Shown: positions 4,544-21,570 of the stretch, one piece after another
Position numbering within the stretch: the first letter of the stretch is position 1
Layout of the letters: every line of letters starts with the position of its first letter
IMG/VR virus record: IMGVR_UViG_3300010373_000135
Coordinates: 1-24,474 of that record
Reading direction: 5' to 3' (one strand)
From: a virus
Length of the DNA: 24,474 nt
The notes under the pieces: generated by a model
The model's input: only the letters and a program-made list of their open reading frames with translations
Database searches by the model: none
Told to the model about the DNA's origin: nothing
Made by a program: the position numbers and the translations under genes

Positions 4544-5353
4544 TCAGCTCCCTGCGATTCCAAGGTTATAGTCGCTACCGGATCCATAGGTCGAAGATCC
4601 GAGCTCCGGCATGGTGATCTGTCCCGACCCGTAGTTATTTGAAGGTGCGGCCATGTATCCGCTATTCATCGGCATAGAGCCGTAGTTATTCATGTTGTTG
4701 TTGTAGGCGCTCAGCATTTGTTGCTGCATGAGATAGTTACCCATGCTCCCGCCGAGGTTGCTGGTTCCCCCTCCGACAATGTTTCCTTGCGCGATTTGAG
4801 ATGCCGCTGCGGCATTTCCAGCACCGATGGTGTTCGCGCTGATGTTGTTTGCCGTATTCATTCCCACTTGAGCGGCCTGACCGTTTGCGGTCTGTCCGAT
4901 CTGAGCTTGAGAGGCAAGTCTATTAAACCGCTGAGTTTGGTCATTATTGAATCGGTTGTAGGCGTTCTGATATTCGTTCGATGCCATTCCCTGCGTATAG
5001 TTGGCCATGTCCTTCATCATGCCGCCGCTTGCGAGTCCTCCTCGAGCCGCAGCGGATCGTTCAATGGCTTGCTGGCCCTGCTGAAGATCGAATTGATATC
5101 CAGGGTCTTGCTGAAAGTCAGACATATTGAATGTCTGCTGAAAATACGGGTCAGCCATCTCAGAGAGAGCTCTCTGACCGGCGAATCTCCATGGCGCCTG
5201 GGCGGACATCTGCTCATTGAATTCATTCGTTTGGGTTTGATTCGCGCTCTGAGCCGCCTGTTGCTGAGCGTCGTTCGCGTTGCTTGAATTGATGTAACTG
5301 ATGGTCCCGCCAATGATTGCGGCACCTGCAATTGCTGTCGCTACGCCGGACAT
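4544..5353 (-). CDS. gp7-like DNA transfer (ejection) protein
   Basis: This is a 269-aa protein. The N-terminus has a short hydrophobic segment (VATAIAGAAIIGGTISYI, residues 4-21). The core DPGYQFDLQQGQQAIERSAA then GGLASGGMMKDMANYTQGMA, NEYQNAYNRFNND and FNRLASQAQIGQTA is a pattern I recognise from phage proteins annotated as DNA transfer protein p7. These are packaged in the capsid and ejected with the genome. The C-terminal third is Asn/Gly/Met/Ser-rich and low in complexity. A G-run (GGGGGGG) upstream may serve as the RBS, and the start overlaps the cupin-SET stop by 13 bases. P22 gp7 is of similar size. Confidence 0.8.
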   Translation of the reverse strand: MSGVATAIAGAAIIGGTISYINSSNANDAQQQAAQSANQTQTNEFNEQMSAQAPWRFAGQRALSEMADPYFQQTFNMSDFQQDPGYQFDLQQGQQAIERSAAARGGLASGGMMKDMANYTQGMASNEYQNAYNRFNNDQTQRFNRLASQAQIGQTANGQAAQVGMNTANNISANTIGAGNAAAASQIAQGNIVGGGTSNLGGSMGNYLMQQQMLSAYNNNMNNYGSMPMNSGYMAAPSNNYGSGQITMPELGSSTYGSGSDYNLGIAGS

Positions 5354-6240
5354 GGTATTGCCCCCCCGATCGTTTGCGCGCTGGCAAAGGTTAGGTAGTA
5401 ATCCGTGGTGATCTCTTCTCCGTCTCCGATGTCTTTGGAGGCGACGAGGTAAACACTTCCGTTTTCAATCGTGATCATTTCGGCATTCGGGTCTGCGGCG
5501 TGATTGCAGTATCTTCCGGCAGGCGTTCTCATTCCTTGGACCCTAGCGGGAGCAATGACTTCCCCGCGTTTAAACCCGCATGCTGAAAACACGCCTTTTC
5601 CATGGATCGGTGATTCTTTGATTTCGACTGAAACAGGCCAAGGAAACAGGATTTGATCGGAAGCGTTCTCGGATACCGATTTCATTTCATCGGCCGTAGT
5701 GCCGGTGTGAAAGAGAACGTCCTCGATCGTTCGCTTCGAAGAGAGATATCCGTCTTTTGAGCGTCCCTGCCAGGTGATGACATCTGGATCTGGTTGACGA
5801 GACCCGGATTGAGGAACGCCGTCGAAGGTCTCGGAAAAAAGCATTTCTTCTAGCTTATCGATGTCTCGCTCATTCGCAGGATTGGCGTGAACCGTAATCC
5901 AGACAGTGTCCTCATGCGCGTATCCTGCTCGCTTTAGACCCGGAAACGACCTAATTACTGTCGGTGCTCCGACCTTTTTCAGTCCATCTTCTGTCATGAC
6001 GGAAATGAGTCCTGAGCTGATGACATTGAGATATTCGGTCTTCTGAATTTTTCCGACGAGTGTCGTGTTTTTTGGAATGAAAAGTTCACGAATATAAACA
6101 TCCGGAGCGAACCGGTGCGTCGTCTTGATCTGAACCTGACGATCTGGCATCGAATTCATCACGCGCTCGAGCTGGATGATCTTTCCTCTGAGCTCTGACT
6201 GCGCGCCGTTTTGAGTGGTTGCGAGTTCGTTAAGACTCAT
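5341..6240 (-). CDS. Cupin-like domain fused to a SET-domain lysine methyltransferase
   Basis: This is a 299-aa protein. Residues about 40-120 form a small beta-rich cupin-like domain (HRFAPDVYIRELFIPKNT, VGKIQKTEYLNVISSGLISV, GYAHEDTVWITVHA) of a kind frequent in phage structural regions. Residues about 203-285 carry SET motifs in order: SPIHGKGVFSACGFKRGEVI (substrate and cofactor edge), RYCNHAADPNAE (the N-H-x-x-x-P-N cofactor loop) and GEEITTDY (the catalytic-tyrosine end). SET proteins transfer methyl from S-adenosylmethionine to lysine. AGAAGGAAA precedes the ATG at 6240, which overlaps the previous stop; a 27-residue longer form is possible. No post-SET cysteines are seen. It sits between head-tail joining proteins and ejection proteins, so its target may be a virion or host protein. 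The target is unknown. Confidence 0.8.
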   Translation of the reverse strand: MSLNELATTQNGAQSELRGKIIQLERVMNSMPDRQVQIKTTHRFAPDVYIRELFIPKNTTLVGKIQKTEYLNVISSGLISVMTEDGLKKVGAPTVIRSFPGLKRAGYAHEDTVWITVHANPANERDIDKLEEMLFSETFDGVPQSGSRQPDPDVITWQGRSKDGYLSSKRTIEDVLFHTGTTADEMKSVSENASDQILFPWPVSVEIKESPIHGKGVFSACGFKRGEVIAPARVQGMRTPAGRYCNHAADPNAEMITIENGSVYLVASKDIGDGEEITTDYYLTFASAQTIGGAIPCPA

Positions 6241-6560
6241 GGATTTCCTTCTACTTTCACAAGGATCGATGATGCCGTTCCAAGGCTCAGCGAAATCACG
6301 TTGATTCGTCTGAATCTGCACGGGAAAAAGCCTGCTCCGGTTGATTCAATCAATCCGTTGCCAGGATTCGTATTTGTATGAGTCAGGATCGGCGTCCAAC
6401 TTTCGGTGGAATTACCGGTTAGCGATCCCTCGAGATTAACCGTCCAAGTGGCGCCCGATCCTGCCGGAGCGTCCACCTCTAGAGAAAACGAAGACAGAAG
6501 TGAGCCATCACCGATGAATGGACCCGGCCCTGTCGCTGAAAAGTTTTGTGGTTCGATCAT
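6237..6560 (-). CDS. Small beta-rich virion-region protein
   Basis: This is a 107-aa protein starting MIEPQNFSATGPGPFIG. A GGAGG lies about 6 bases before the ATG, which overlaps the upstream stop (ATGA). The sequence alternates polar and hydrophobic residues (FSLEVDAPAGSGATWTVNLE, SWTPILTHTNTNPGNGL, FFPCRFRRINVISLSLGTAS), suggesting a single beta-sandwich of the type found in small head or tail decoration proteins. Many phages carry similar short proteins with a WTVxLEGSLDG-like strand. I do not assign a named family. It is translationally coupled to the cupin-SET gene that follows. Confidence 0.7.
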   Translation of the reverse strand: MIEPQNFSATGPGPFIGDGSLLSSFSLEVDAPAGSGATWTVNLEGSLTGNSTESWTPILTHTNTNPGNGLIESTGAGFFPCRFRRINVISLSLGTASSILVKVEGNP

Positions 6561-6754
6561 TTCGACCTCCAAAAGGAGCGATGCCAAAACCTGAGAGGCT
6601 TGGCGTGGTGATGAAGGAGCGATTTTTGAACAAAGAACTGATGATCTTTGTCGGTTTTAACGACTACTCTGTCTGGGTTGTGCGTATCGGGTCGCATGAC
6701 ATGCCACACGTTTCCGCAATGAGACAAAAGCTTCATTCCGATTTTCACTTTCAT
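6557..6754 (-). CDS. Small basic hypothetical protein
   Basis: This is a 65-aa protein, MKVKIGMKLLSHCGNVWHV onward, rich in His, Lys and Arg with an aromatic basic C-terminus (KPLRFWHRSFWRSK). AAGGAG is about 8 bases before the chosen ATG at 6754; the longer form beginning at 6793 lacks a comparable RBS and would intrude further into the preceding gene. Start and stop overlap the neighbours by four bases each, so it is co-translated within the virion cluster. The N-terminal half looks like a small SH3-like beta barrel. No family is recognised. Confidence 0.65.
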   Translation of the reverse strand: MKVKIGMKLLSHCGNVWHVMRPDTHNPDRVVVKTDKDHQFFVQKSLLHHHAKPLRFWHRSFWRSK

Positions 6755-7059
6755 GAGTGTGCGCTCCTTACCTGTTGAAGCCAGGCACGCCATTGAACGG
6801 TCGGGGTGCCGTCAGAAGAGATCATTGGAGAGTTGATCGGAGCCGAAGCGACTCCTGATCCCGAAAATTGCGCGAAGAATCCCGCCCATGTTGGCGTCGG
6901 CGTTCCTTTTTCGGTAGAAATGGGCGCATTGATCGGAGCCGGTGCCTTTCCGAGTGATTTTGCGATTTGTCTGAAAAATGAAACCCATGGAACGCTTGGA
7001 GTTCCGTCTTTCTCAGTCATCGTAGAATTCAGAGGGACCGGAGGAATGGCTGTTGCCAT
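6751..7059 (-). CDS. Triple-repeat small protein next to gp10-like gene
   Basis: This 102-aa protein is made of three copies of one unit: PLNSTMTEKDGTPSVPWVSF at about residue 9, PINAPISTEKGTPTPTWAGF at about 42 and PINSPMISSDGTPTVQWRAW at about 76. Each ends in an FFxQ or WLQQ helix tip. The shared pattern is P-[LI]-N-[SA]-x-[MI]-x-x-x-x-G-T-P-[ST]-x-x-W. Similar single units occur in small phage tail-associated proteins, so a tail-adaptor or needle-associated role is possible. The start forms TAATG with the gp10-like stop. No biochemical function can be read from it. Confidence 0.7.
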   Translation of the reverse strand: MATAIPPVPLNSTMTEKDGTPSVPWVSFFRQIAKSLGKAPAPINAPISTEKGTPTPTWAGFFAQFSGSGVASAPINSPMISSDGTPTVQWRAWLQQVRSAHS

Positions 7060-9131
7060 TATGCGACTCCCTCTTCGACATCGAGTTGAGCCCCAACCAC
7101 AGTCACTTTCACCGGATCAGAGATTCTAAGCTTGTAAACGCGGTCTCTCGCGTTTCCGAGCCTGTTCCATTGAACTCGCGGAATCCTTACCCCGATTGGG
7201 CCAATTGGGCGCGTGTGCTCATTTGACCAGGAGTGTCCGGAGTCGTTTGACCAAGAGAGCATGGCCTGAGGATTGACCCCCTGACCGCTTCCGCTCGTTC
7301 CAACGCCTGTTTCAATGTCCAGGCAAAATCTTGAATGGAAAATTCGGTTCAGGTTTTCCGATACGTGAGGAGCGGTCCGCTCTCTCACAATCGGATTTCC
7401 ATTATCAGTGAAGTTATTTACATCGAGCGAGTAGAGCTTTCCGCTTGAGTAATCACCTACGACGTTTGTGTTAAAAGCAAAGGCCGAGCAGTCGCCCAGG
7501 TGGCGCTCGTACTGGCCCGCCGCGAGATAAGCGCGCTCATGCCAGAGCTGCGTCGTCGCGTCAAAAACCCAAGTAGTGCTTGCTCCAGGAAGATTCAGGC
7601 AATAAAAGGCGTGGCCGCCCTGTTGATATGTCCAGCCTCTCGCGCTCGATACGTCGCCAAGGCCCCGAATCATGTTCTCGATCGCGAACGTGCTGATCCG
7701 TTTCGGCTGATACCCGGTGATAGCATAAACGATTCCGCGTCCGTCTTTATCCTGACCGAGCCAGAAAATCGTGTTGTTAATCCTTCCGAGAGAGAATCCG
7801 GAAACAGTTCCGATTCCGATGACAGCGTTTTGAACTCTGGAGAACGGGAAATTAGCGTTTCCGGCGTCATACCAGACTTCAAGGTGTTTCTCGCTGAATA
7901 GATAGACGTTTTCTTGAGAAACAACGACGCCAAGAAGTTCATCTGAACTTGCTTCGGCGGAGGCGACATCAAGCCCATTGAAAGGGGCGATAGAATTGAG
8001 TGGAGACAGAAAAAATTGTTTTGAATTAGGTTGAGTGAATATGAAATACCCATCCATGAACTCGACCTGATTCGCTCCGAGAAAGCTCTGATCCCTGATT
8101 TGTTGAAAGGTGTTCTGGCTCGCGGGATAAGTTTGATAGCTCCACGATGCGACACCGGTACCGCCCTGAGGGTTTTGACAGACGACAGCGATCTGCGTAT
8201 TCGGCTGAACCACTGCGAGCATGTATTGATTCTGCGTATAGGCTGGAGTTCCCCACGAAATAATCCCAGTTCCACCGGATGGATTTGTGCAGGTGAGTGT
8301 GATCTGCGTGTTGGGAGCCATGACCTGAAGGACGTTTCCGCCCGAAGTTTGAACGGTGACGTTTTCCGTAGAGAAGTTCACGAGGATGAAGGCCTCGTTT
8401 GTAACAAGAGTCGCCGCCACTGGCATAACGACCGTTTGGGATTGAGATCCGATCAGAAACTGCTGGTTTTTGCTTGCCGCGGTAAGGGTTGTGGTTCCAG
8501 CCGATGTGGTGATTACCGAATAATTGGTCGGCGCTCCAAACGGAGCCCCAGAAGTTTCAACGACCACAGGCTGAGAGGATAGATTTACGATGTTAAAACC
8601 GTTTCCTTGCGCCATCGTCGTCGCGACGGGAAGAAAAATGAGCTGGTTTTGCGATCCGGTGAAATATTGCTGGTAGTTACTCGATGATGAAAGTCCGGTC
8701 GTTGACGAAGCGGTTTGCGTGGTCGAGTAGCCAGCGGGGAGCGCTCCGGTTGATAGCGTCAGTACCCAGGAATATCCATAGGGACCGTCTACAAGAACGC
8801 CCTCGCTTCCATTGTCCGACATCGACACAGGACCGGATGACGTATTGAGGGTTCCGACCGCAGTCGCGACCCACGCGCTAGAAACCGAGTAAATAGTATT
8901 TCCACCGACCGCCCATAGATTTCCTTGGGTATCGGTATAGGTTCCCCGCACCGGAGCGGTCGGGAGCTCGCACAGAAGCGTGAGTCCGGGAGTAGATACC
9001 AGCGATGCAACTTCGCCCTCGTTTCCAGAGCCCTCTTCGTTGATCTCTGGATAGAGATTAAGCGTCCTCTGACAGTCCACGTTGACGGACTGAAGCGTGT
9101 AGCTTGGGCCGATGAAGTTTCTAAACCTCAT
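7059..9131 (-). CDS. P22 gp10-like packaged DNA stabilisation protein with large insertion
   Basis: This is a 690-aa protein. The N-terminus (FRNFIGPSYTLQSVNVDCQR, TLNLYPEINEEGSGNEGE) and the remaining beta-propeller-like body (NTIFWLGQDKDGRGIVYAI, WHERAYLAAGQYERHLGDCS) match phage stabilisation proteins of the P22 gp10 type. These form the hub that plugs the portal-gp4 channel after packaging. P22 gp10 is about 470 aa; the excess lies at residues about 130-337, which hold two repeats of a receptor-type beta domain (151-196 and 220-265) and two further short copies (PNTQITLTCTNP and PNTQIAVVCQNP). The ATG overlaps the gp4-like stop (ATGA). The call is strong for the family; the insertion is treated separately. 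Confidence 0.85.
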   Translation of the reverse strand: MRFRNFIGPSYTLQSVNVDCQRTLNLYPEINEEGSGNEGEVASLVSTPGLTLLCELPTAPVRGTYTDTQGNLWAVGGNTIYSVSSAWVATAVGTLNTSSGPVSMSDNGSEGVLVDGPYGYSWVLTLSTGALPAGYSTTQTASSTTGLSSSSNYQQYFTGSQNQLIFLPVATTMAQGNGFNIVNLSSQPVVVETSGAPFGAPTNYSVITTSAGTTTLTAASKNQQFLIGSQSQTVVMPVAATLVTNEAFILVNFSTENVTVQTSGGNVLQVMAPNTQITLTCTNPSGGTGIISWGTPAYTQNQYMLAVVQPNTQIAVVCQNPQGGTGVASWSYQTYPASQNTFQQIRDQSFLGANQVEFMDGYFIFTQPNSKQFFLSPLNSIAPFNGLDVASAEASSDELLGVVVSQENVYLFSEKHLEVWYDAGNANFPFSRVQNAVIGIGTVSGFSLGRINNTIFWLGQDKDGRGIVYAITGYQPKRISTFAIENMIRGLGDVSSARGWTYQQGGHAFYCLNLPGASTTWVFDATTQLWHERAYLAAGQYERHLGDCSAFAFNTNVVGDYSSGKLYSLDVNNFTDNGNPIVRERTAPHVSENLNRIFHSRFCLDIETGVGTSGSGQGVNPQAMLSWSNDSGHSWSNEHTRPIGPIGVRIPRVQWNRLGNARDRVYKLRISDPVKVTVVGAQLDVEEGVA
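8121..8681 (-). repeat. Internal protein repeats inserted in gp10-like gene
   Basis: Within the gp10-like protein, residues 151-196 (NYQQYFTGSQNQLIFLPVAT then FNIVNLSSQPVVVETSGA) and 220-265 (KNQQFLIGSQSQTVVMPVAA then FILVNFSTENVTVQTSGG) are copies of one beta unit. A following element occurs twice, at about 270-300 and 307-337 (APNTQITLTCTNPSGGTG and QPNTQIAVVCQNPQGGTG). The copies are diverged at DNA level, so the duplication is not recent. Units like these are common in phage tail fibre and baseplate proteins. Confidence 0.75.
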
Positions 9132-20506: not shown

Positions 20507-21181
20507 ATGAGTAGTACAAAAATCTATCAGGCAATTCCCAAACTTATGGCCGAAGTAGGTTCCATCGCAAAAGGAAGACAGAACAAGCAGCAGGGTTATG
20601 TGTTTCGTGGAATTGATGATGTTTACTCCGCCCTTCAGGCCCCTCTGGCAAAGCATGGTGTTTTCTTTGCTCCAAAAGTGCTGGAACAGCACAGAGAAGA
20701 GCGCGCAGCGAAAAGTGGCGGGGTTTTGATCTACACGATTCTAAAAGTTGAATTCGTGTTCTTCGCTGACGACGGGAGCTCGTTTTCCGTCACGACTATT
20801 GGCGAAGGAATGGACTCCGGAGACAAGTCGGCGAACAAAGCCATGAGTGCGGCTTTAAAATACGCGCTTCTTCAGCTCTTTTGTGTTCCAACGGATGAGC
20901 CAAAAGACTCTGAAAACGACTCACCGGAGCCTACACCCAAGAAGGGTGCCGACATTAGGCCGATCAGTGGACATGGGTCTGGACGGGCTTCCTCAGAAGG
21001 AAGCGGCGCTTTTTGTCAGGCATGTAGTGCAGAGCTTCTTATTAGCAAGTCCGGAGCCGGTTATTACTGCCCCAATTTCAAAGACACCTCTGTTGGAGAG
21101 CACACCCGAATTAAGGCGGTTGAACTTGCCGCGTTCAAACAGCACCAAGAATTGAACAATCAACAGGATGTTCCGTTTTGA
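20507..21181 (+). CDS. erf: ERF-family single-strand annealing protein
   Basis: This is a 224-aa protein. Residues about 1-135 form the ERF core: IYQAIPKLMAEVGSIAKGRQ, QGYVFRGIDDVYSALQAPLA, KHGVFFAPKVLEQ, VTTIGEGMDSGDKSANKAMS, AALKYALLQLFCVPTDEP. ERF proteins form rings and anneal complementary single strands in phage recombination, needed in P22 for genome circularisation. A Pro/Ser linker leads to a C-terminal segment with CQACSAELLISKSG and YYCPN, a likely zinc ribbon with a third or fourth Cys, unusual for the family. It overlaps the next gene by four bases and follows Gp157. Confidence 0.9.
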   Translation: MSSTKIYQAIPKLMAEVGSIAKGRQNKQQGYVFRGIDDVYSALQAPLAKHGVFFAPKVLEQHREERAAKSGGVLIYTILKVEFVFFADDGSSFSVTTIGEGMDSGDKSANKAMSAALKYALLQLFCVPTDEPKDSENDSPEPTPKKGADIRPISGHGSGRASSEGSGAFCQACSAELLISKSGAGYYCPNFKDTSVGEHTRIKAVELAAFKQHQELNNQQDVPF

Positions 21182-21570
21182 GCGACGAAGCCATCTTCAA
21201 GAGCATCAGCGAGACCGTGACTCCGATCTTTGATCGGCATAAGGGTCGCCGTCTGGAAATGATGCGCAAACTCCTGCTCTTGGATCAGCGCCAGCTTGGA
21301 GAAAAACTGGGCGTTCCTCCGCAGATGATCTCGAAGCTCGAGCGCGGAGTTACGCCCGTGAGCAAAACACCGATCACGCTCGACAAGTTTTTTTCGGTCT
21401 TTGGCTGCCTCATGGATCACATCCTGAGTAACGCCAATCGCAAGGGTTTCGACTACGAAGATATCAACCTCAAATACTGGAGAGAAAAAGACAAACGAAA
21501 GGGAAATAGAACGGCGAGAATGCCTTATCACCGCTACAAAAGCCGCTGGAAAACTGTTAACAACCGATAG
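21178..21570 (+). CDS. Xre-type HTH regulator
   Basis: This is a 130-aa protein with a TTG start overlapping the ERF stop. The helix-turn-helix is at about residues 22-75: GRRLEMMRKLLLLDQRQLGE then KLGVPPQMISKLERGVTPVS and ITLDKFFSVFG. The basic tail (YWREKDKRKGNRTARMPYHR then YKSRWKTVNNR) could bind nucleic acid. AGGA is upstream. Being in the middle of the early operon, it may control the replication block that follows or the late switch. Confidence 0.75.
   Translation: MSDEAIFKSISETVTPIFDRHKGRRLEMMRKLLLLDQRQLGEKLGVPPQMISKLERGVTPVSKTPITLDKFFSVFGCLMDHILSNANRKGFDYEDINLKYWREKDKRKGNRTARMPYHRYKSRWKTVNNR

Follow-up and report, generated by a model that had tools for sequence, protein, structure and literature searches.

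A cupin–SET fusion protein with a pared-down SET domain, encoded among the late genes of a P22-like podovirus

We analyzed a gene on the minus strand of the window, by which we mean the whole stretch of DNA under study, here the complete 24,474-base virus record, which is probably a fragment of a phage genome. The phage is P22-like, with family matches to the P22 portal (2.4e-189) and the P22 coat protein (1e-43). The gene, at 5341–6240, belongs to the late operon of this podovirus and encodes a genuine protein of two domains. The protein, its parts, and its neighbors are as follows.

4544..5353, minus strand: gp7-like DNA ejection protein (PHROG 598, 1.1e-37)
5341..6240, minus strand: cupin–SET fusion protein, 299 aa, member of PHROG 34170 (open reading frame, Pfam, PHROG, AlphaFold2, Foldseek)
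5398..5628, minus strand: minimal SET domain, aa 205–281 (Pfam, alignment, AlphaFold2, Foldseek)
5641..5733, minus strand: conserved two-helix pre-SET segment, aa ~170–200 (alignment, AlphaFold2)
5734..5796, minus strand: disordered linker between cupin and SET, aa 149–169 (AlphaFold2 pLDDT < 50)
5806..6183, minus strand: N-terminal cupin (RmlC-like) barrel, about aa 20–145 (PHROG 12032, AlphaFold2, Foldseek)
6237..6587, minus strand: 116-aa gene directly upstream of the cupin–SET gene, without a confident family match
7059..9131, minus strand: head closure Hc3, P22 gp10-like (PHROG 578, 4.5e-116)

The cupin–SET gene begins with an ATG at 6240, 5′ of which lies the ribosome-binding-like sequence AGAAGGA. 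Its start shares an ATGA overlap with the stop of the 116-aa gene, and at its 3′ end, where the stop codon occupies 5341–5343, it shares 13 bases with the beginning of the ejection gene. The start, the stop, and the ribosome-binding-like sequence bear out the reading frame and coordinates proposed in a preliminary description of this DNA, and the PHROG matches of the Hc3 and gp7-like neighbors agree with its placement of the gene between head–tail joining and ejection genes. If a GTG start (to 6321) were used instead, the added length would only cover the upstream gene again; this reading is unlikely.

Elsewhere in the window, the protein encoded at 412–1641 has a start that resembles, by eye, the head-binding domain of the P22 tailspike; its sole family match is to a PHROG of unknown function (7.4e-14). 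Oriented divergently from the late operon, a plus-strand gene for an ERF-type annealing protein (20507–21181) is overlapped and followed on the same strand by a gene for an HTH regulator (21178–21570).

The two-domain architecture is recovered by family, profile, and structure comparisons. PHROG 34170 spans both halves of the protein (E = 5.7e-55, aa 11–286 of 299 aligned to 10–280 of 296), while PHROG 12032 matches the N-terminal part (E = 2e-37, aa 3–140). AlphaFold2 modeling of the full protein with 53 homologues gave two confident domains with a mean pLDDT of 85.8, at a pTM of only 0.55, so that the relative placement of the domains is not fixed by the model. Foldseek matched the full-length model to the cupins 3lag, 3fjs, and 2fqp and to the SET domains of vSET (3kma), MLL1, SETD8, and ASH1L. 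This agreement among Pfam, PHROG, and AlphaFold2/Foldseek upholds the earlier view that the phage encodes a SET domain fused to a cupin of a structural-block family.

A helix (aa 3–29) precedes the cupin barrel. Foldseek and a cupin-only profile, which matched TM1459 in the PDB (E = 0.0065), both identify the N-terminal domain as the double-stranded beta-helix barrel of the cupin superfamily. The family alignment contains neither a cupin metal-binding His/Glu set nor a conserved motif-2 His. The only common metal-ligand candidates among the relatives are H64 (82%) and H70 (86%), and in the window protein these two positions are occupied by K64 and Y70, making a metal site unlikely in this cupin. 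The pre-SET segment, with the family consensus DYxxxLxExGFxxxxVRxQSENxxDQIxxP, accompanies SET in SET-only genes as well.

When modeled alone, the SET part reached a pLDDT of 85.7 and a pTM of 0.75, with pLDDT above 90 over the domain core. MLL1 and vSET were its best Foldseek matches, and vSET was the best fold match relative to target length (E 4.7e-7, TM 0.55/0.66, the higher value being that by target length; 26% identity). Pfam PF00856 matches aa 241–281 with E = 5.8e-10 and 40 bits against a cut-off of 22.4, covering profile positions 61–104 of 105. A six-frame search of the record recovered the same match (E = 2e-10), which together with the Pfam score indicates that it is not due to chance.

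The SET residues of the window protein are G214xG216, R238-T239, R243xxN246H247xxxP251N252, and E276xT278xD280Y281. In an alignment of about 52 diverse sequences, S210, G214, G216, R238, T239, N252, E276, and Y281 are 100% conserved, N246 and H247 are conserved at 98%, R243, Y244, and P251 at 96%, and D280 at 92%. The GxG cofactor motif, the RFxNHSxxPN motif, and the ELxxDY motif with its catalytic Tyr are thus all represented, in the forms GxG, RxxNHxxxPN, and EExTxDY. These are three of the four classical SET motifs. The preliminary description had credited the protein with all main SET motifs; this holds for these three and not for the fourth, YxG, which is absent along with the SET-I insert from the window protein and from all family members aligned.

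The distance from GxG to NH reflects this reduction. Of 106 homologues, 104 show a spacing of 32 residues and two a spacing of 38, compared with 62–66 in four full-length host SET proteins from genomes with related prophages (the value of 66, for the host protein at L116, was counted by eye, since an NH pair at 40 precedes the true motif). Read from alignments, the spacing comes to about 54 residues for vSET and 67 for MLL1. Its shortness across homologues of the phage protein indicates that the pared-down SET is a family trait rather than damage in the window, and the missing SET-I and YxG make the protein a SET variant rather than a typical member. In known SET enzymes, SET-I and YxG help to shape the substrate channel, and in some eukaryotic SET enzymes accessory subunits supply the substrate groove. 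By analogy, a partner protein may provide the groove in place of the lost SET-I.

We compared the protein with previously described systems. Its closest counterparts are other members of PHROG 34170, including Rhodoferax phage P26218 gp30 and Pseudoalteromonas phage PH1 gp49, which likewise contain both domains at full length and precede an ejection gene. The window SET differs from most fusions of this type in lacking a GCxGG insertion and in having Tyr282 where most have Arg. The family profile gave its best PDB sequence match to the SET domain of MLL1/KMT2A (7.6e-12, against 5.8e-7 for vSET), with GxG, RFINHS, and DY aligned; unlike MLL1, the phage form lacks both SET-I and post-SET, and it comes from a different type of organism and genomic context. 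The chlorovirus PBCV-1 protein vSET (A612L) resembles the phage domain in being a small viral SET without a Cys-rich post-SET, but it retains the longer GxG–NH distance and is not fused to a cupin. Moreover, vSET is named as a histone methyltransferase acting on H3K27.

Relatives of the fusion are widespread. Scanning IMG/VR with the family profile yielded 458 contig stretches with relatives, fusions and single-domain forms pooled, of which the best 80 were kept; a cupin-only profile yielded 278 stretches, and SET was also present in four of the 80 loci found by the cupin-only query. Cultured or named carriers of the fusion include phages P26218 and PH1, phage zth2-2, and Manatee Spring podoviruses, and nine loci were drawn from assembled bacterial genomes, the majority of them metagenome bins. 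Phages of Vibrio, Shewanella, and Thalassomonas commonly carry cupin-only homologues, and Bbp23 of BPP-1 is also of this kind.

The fusion family is already clustered in PHROGs without a function, and database names such as "short tail fiber" and "hypothetical protein" hide the SET domain. One GenBank record bears the label "pbcV-1 histone H3-lys 27 methyltransferase structure"; in addition, a viral structure library lists one phage homologue under the name "SET domain containing protein". Standalone homologues of the window cupin (PHROG 12032) are named "short tail fiber"; the model of the window protein shows a cupin barrel rather than a fiber, and the gene lies in the ejection block. The names "short tail fiber" and "tail fiber adhesin" (PHROG 12032 and 24280) look unsupported. 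Our literature search covered open literature. There, no paper on a phage cupin–SET protein was found, podovirus papers mentioning a "SET domain" referred to immunoglobulin C2-set/I-set domains, one Stenotrophomonas phage paper merely listed a SET protein, and a search for "Bbp23" returned unrelated papers only.

The genomic position of the fusion is strongly conserved. Among loci with at least 600 bases downstream, a gp7-like ejection gene lies directly downstream in 85 of 93 fused loci and in 67 of 74 loci from the cupin-only query, sets that include many near-copies, so that the counts are not independent. In the eight fused exceptions, other proteins with a hydrophobic, Ala/Gly-rich start follow within −16 to +3 bases and are not recognized by the profile. 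An alignment of the ejection proteins contained no conserved stretches usable for locus search.

The same slot is occupied by cupins that lack SET. The homologous cupins of Thalassomonas phage BA3 and Shewanella phage X14 precede the ejection gene as in the window. In T7-like relatives, the cupin lies between tail tubular protein B and a T7_gp14-family internal virion protein. This is the slot of T7 gene 13, whose product Pfam names a probable scaffold protein; in P22, gene 14 fills it. We rejected a homologous relation between the cupin and P22 gp14 or T7 gp13, as hhalign gave probabilities of 0.1 and 0.3 percent and there was no sequence or profile signal; the likeness is a positional analogy only. 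In BPP-1, the SET-less cupin gene lies elsewhere, after terminase and beside a GNAT gene, an arrangement indicating that the linkage between cupin and ejection genes is strong, not absolute.

SET has been gained or lost repeatedly within this family. On a tree of 85 cupin domains, built from few columns and on which gain and loss are indistinguishable, the fused state changes 10 times, at least 7 of these changes being forced by well-supported branches, and the tree does not support a single origin of the fusion. The window cupin belongs to an otherwise SET-less group, joining four SET-less cupins with support of 99/99. The records of these four relatives, for the most part short, yielded no SET. 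In the SET tree, L025 is the closest neighbor of the window, and its cupin likewise adjoins a SET-less one.

Other arrangements separate the two domains. In Paraburkholderia ferrariae (L111:7692–9139), cupin and SET are encoded as two overlapping adjacent genes, a split fusion after which no recognized ejection gene was found, and a prophage of Comamonadaceae has a SET-only gene ahead of an ejection-like one. The association of cupin, SET, and ejection genes thus outlives the fusion itself. Comparison of close relatives (322 non-independent pairs) gave dN/dS values of 0.084 for the SET half and 0.06 for the cupin half, low enough to indicate that the SET half is kept for function.

The near-invariant catalytic motifs and the purifying selection on the SET half suggest that this half is probably functional, in line with the earlier suggestion that it may be active, and that it probably acts as a minimal protein-lysine methyltransferase. 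Recurrence in many phage lineages and strong conservation point to a virus-particle or host protein as its probable substrate. Our preferred reading, to which we assign a probability of roughly 0.45, is that the cupin-tethered SET is an optional SAM-dependent lysine methyltransferase belonging to a protein of the assembly/ejection module and that it methylates a protein at the assembly stage. The cupin barrel would be the core occupant of the position immediately before the first gene for an ejection (internal virion) protein and would serve the ejection module as an assembly or docking factor. At the C-terminus, the minimal SET, for which we infer SAM binding and catalysis, would be an optional protein-lysine methyltransferase carried to its substrate by the cupin. 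The likeliest substrate would be one met during assembly, namely an ejection protein, a neck protein, or the cupin itself, and it would be methylated late in infection.

We considered an ejection protein with one conserved lysine as the substrate and rejected it. Across the fused loci, no lysine position of the adjacent ejection protein is conserved, the best column reaching 36%, and the window copy contains a single lysine. Together these observations make a single fixed site in the ejection protein unlikely, although the absence of a conserved lysine argues only weakly against one. Variable sites in the ejection protein, or other virion proteins, are possible substrates.

The missing SET-I and YxG and the short GxG–NH spacing, relative to both host SET proteins and vSET, count against activity, which may need a partner or may have been lost. 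The main rival to the methyltransferase reading is accordingly that SET is no longer an enzyme and that its fold is kept as a binding or structural module of an assembly factor, where it might bind SAM or a lysine tail but catalyze no reaction. We regard this as unlikely. The motif losses extend to all members, SET is gained or lost freely and so is not essential, and the window cupin offers a parallel in keeping its fold without metal ligands. However, at about 30–48% identity between the SET parts of the relatives and that of the window, the residues that remain invariant are those of the cofactor and catalytic sites (GxG, NHxxxPN, ExTxDY) rather than of the core only.

The remaining readings direct the enzyme at the host. 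An unpackaged late protein might methylate a cytoplasmic host protein in takeover or counter-defense, its place in the late operon serving expression only. SET-only genes away from ejection genes, one beside a holin-like gene (L015) and one at L112, would suit such a role, which we nevertheless judge distinctly improbable, given the tight, recurrent linkage and the fusion to a structural-block cupin in most relatives. Docking by the cupin in or on the particle, followed by ejection and methylation of a host envelope, ribosome, or defense protein at the start of infection, would fit both the adjacency to ejection genes in almost all relatives and the optional, patchy occurrence expected of a host-facing accessory. 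Against it, no report of the protein in virions was found in the proteomic data or literature searched, and a SET-less form of the same cupin occupies the slot in many phages; we consider it very unlikely. The same low standing applies to a virion-borne, cupin-tethered, SET-I-less methyltransferase that would be ejected with the internal virion proteins and act at entry on a host target or the trans-envelope channel.

Most of what is known of SET enzymes comes from eukaryotic chromatin. The present family places a reduced SET, recurrent and under purifying selection, among the particle-assembly genes of many podoviruses, including the cultured phages P26218 and PH1. If the domain is active, lysine methylation would take part in phage assembly or DNA ejection, and the family would mark the lower size limit of a functional SET; if it is inactive, the family represents a striking reuse of the SET fold.

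Several observations concern individual loci. GNAT acetyltransferase genes occur beside the cupin gene in BPP-1 (L204, 8483–9402) and beside an ejection-like gene in zth2-2 (L022:7153–7605), where they represent another possible protein-modifying enzyme near the cupin/ejection module. As a recurrent partner in the slot, GNAT enzymes were rejected, the cases being one SET-bearing locus (zth2-2, in a narrow search) and bbp24 of BPP-1. A standalone 106-aa pared-down SET (PHROG 28741) is encoded at L015:5965–6285, on a viral contig, and at L016; it adjoins a holin-looking 134-aa protein, and a separate small cupin-like gene (6698–7039) keeps a His-rich motif. Finally, at L023:3809–5240 (MW202557), the cupin–SET reading frame is unannotated, and a "contryphan-vn-tryptophan" reading frame has been called on the opposite strand, just upstream.
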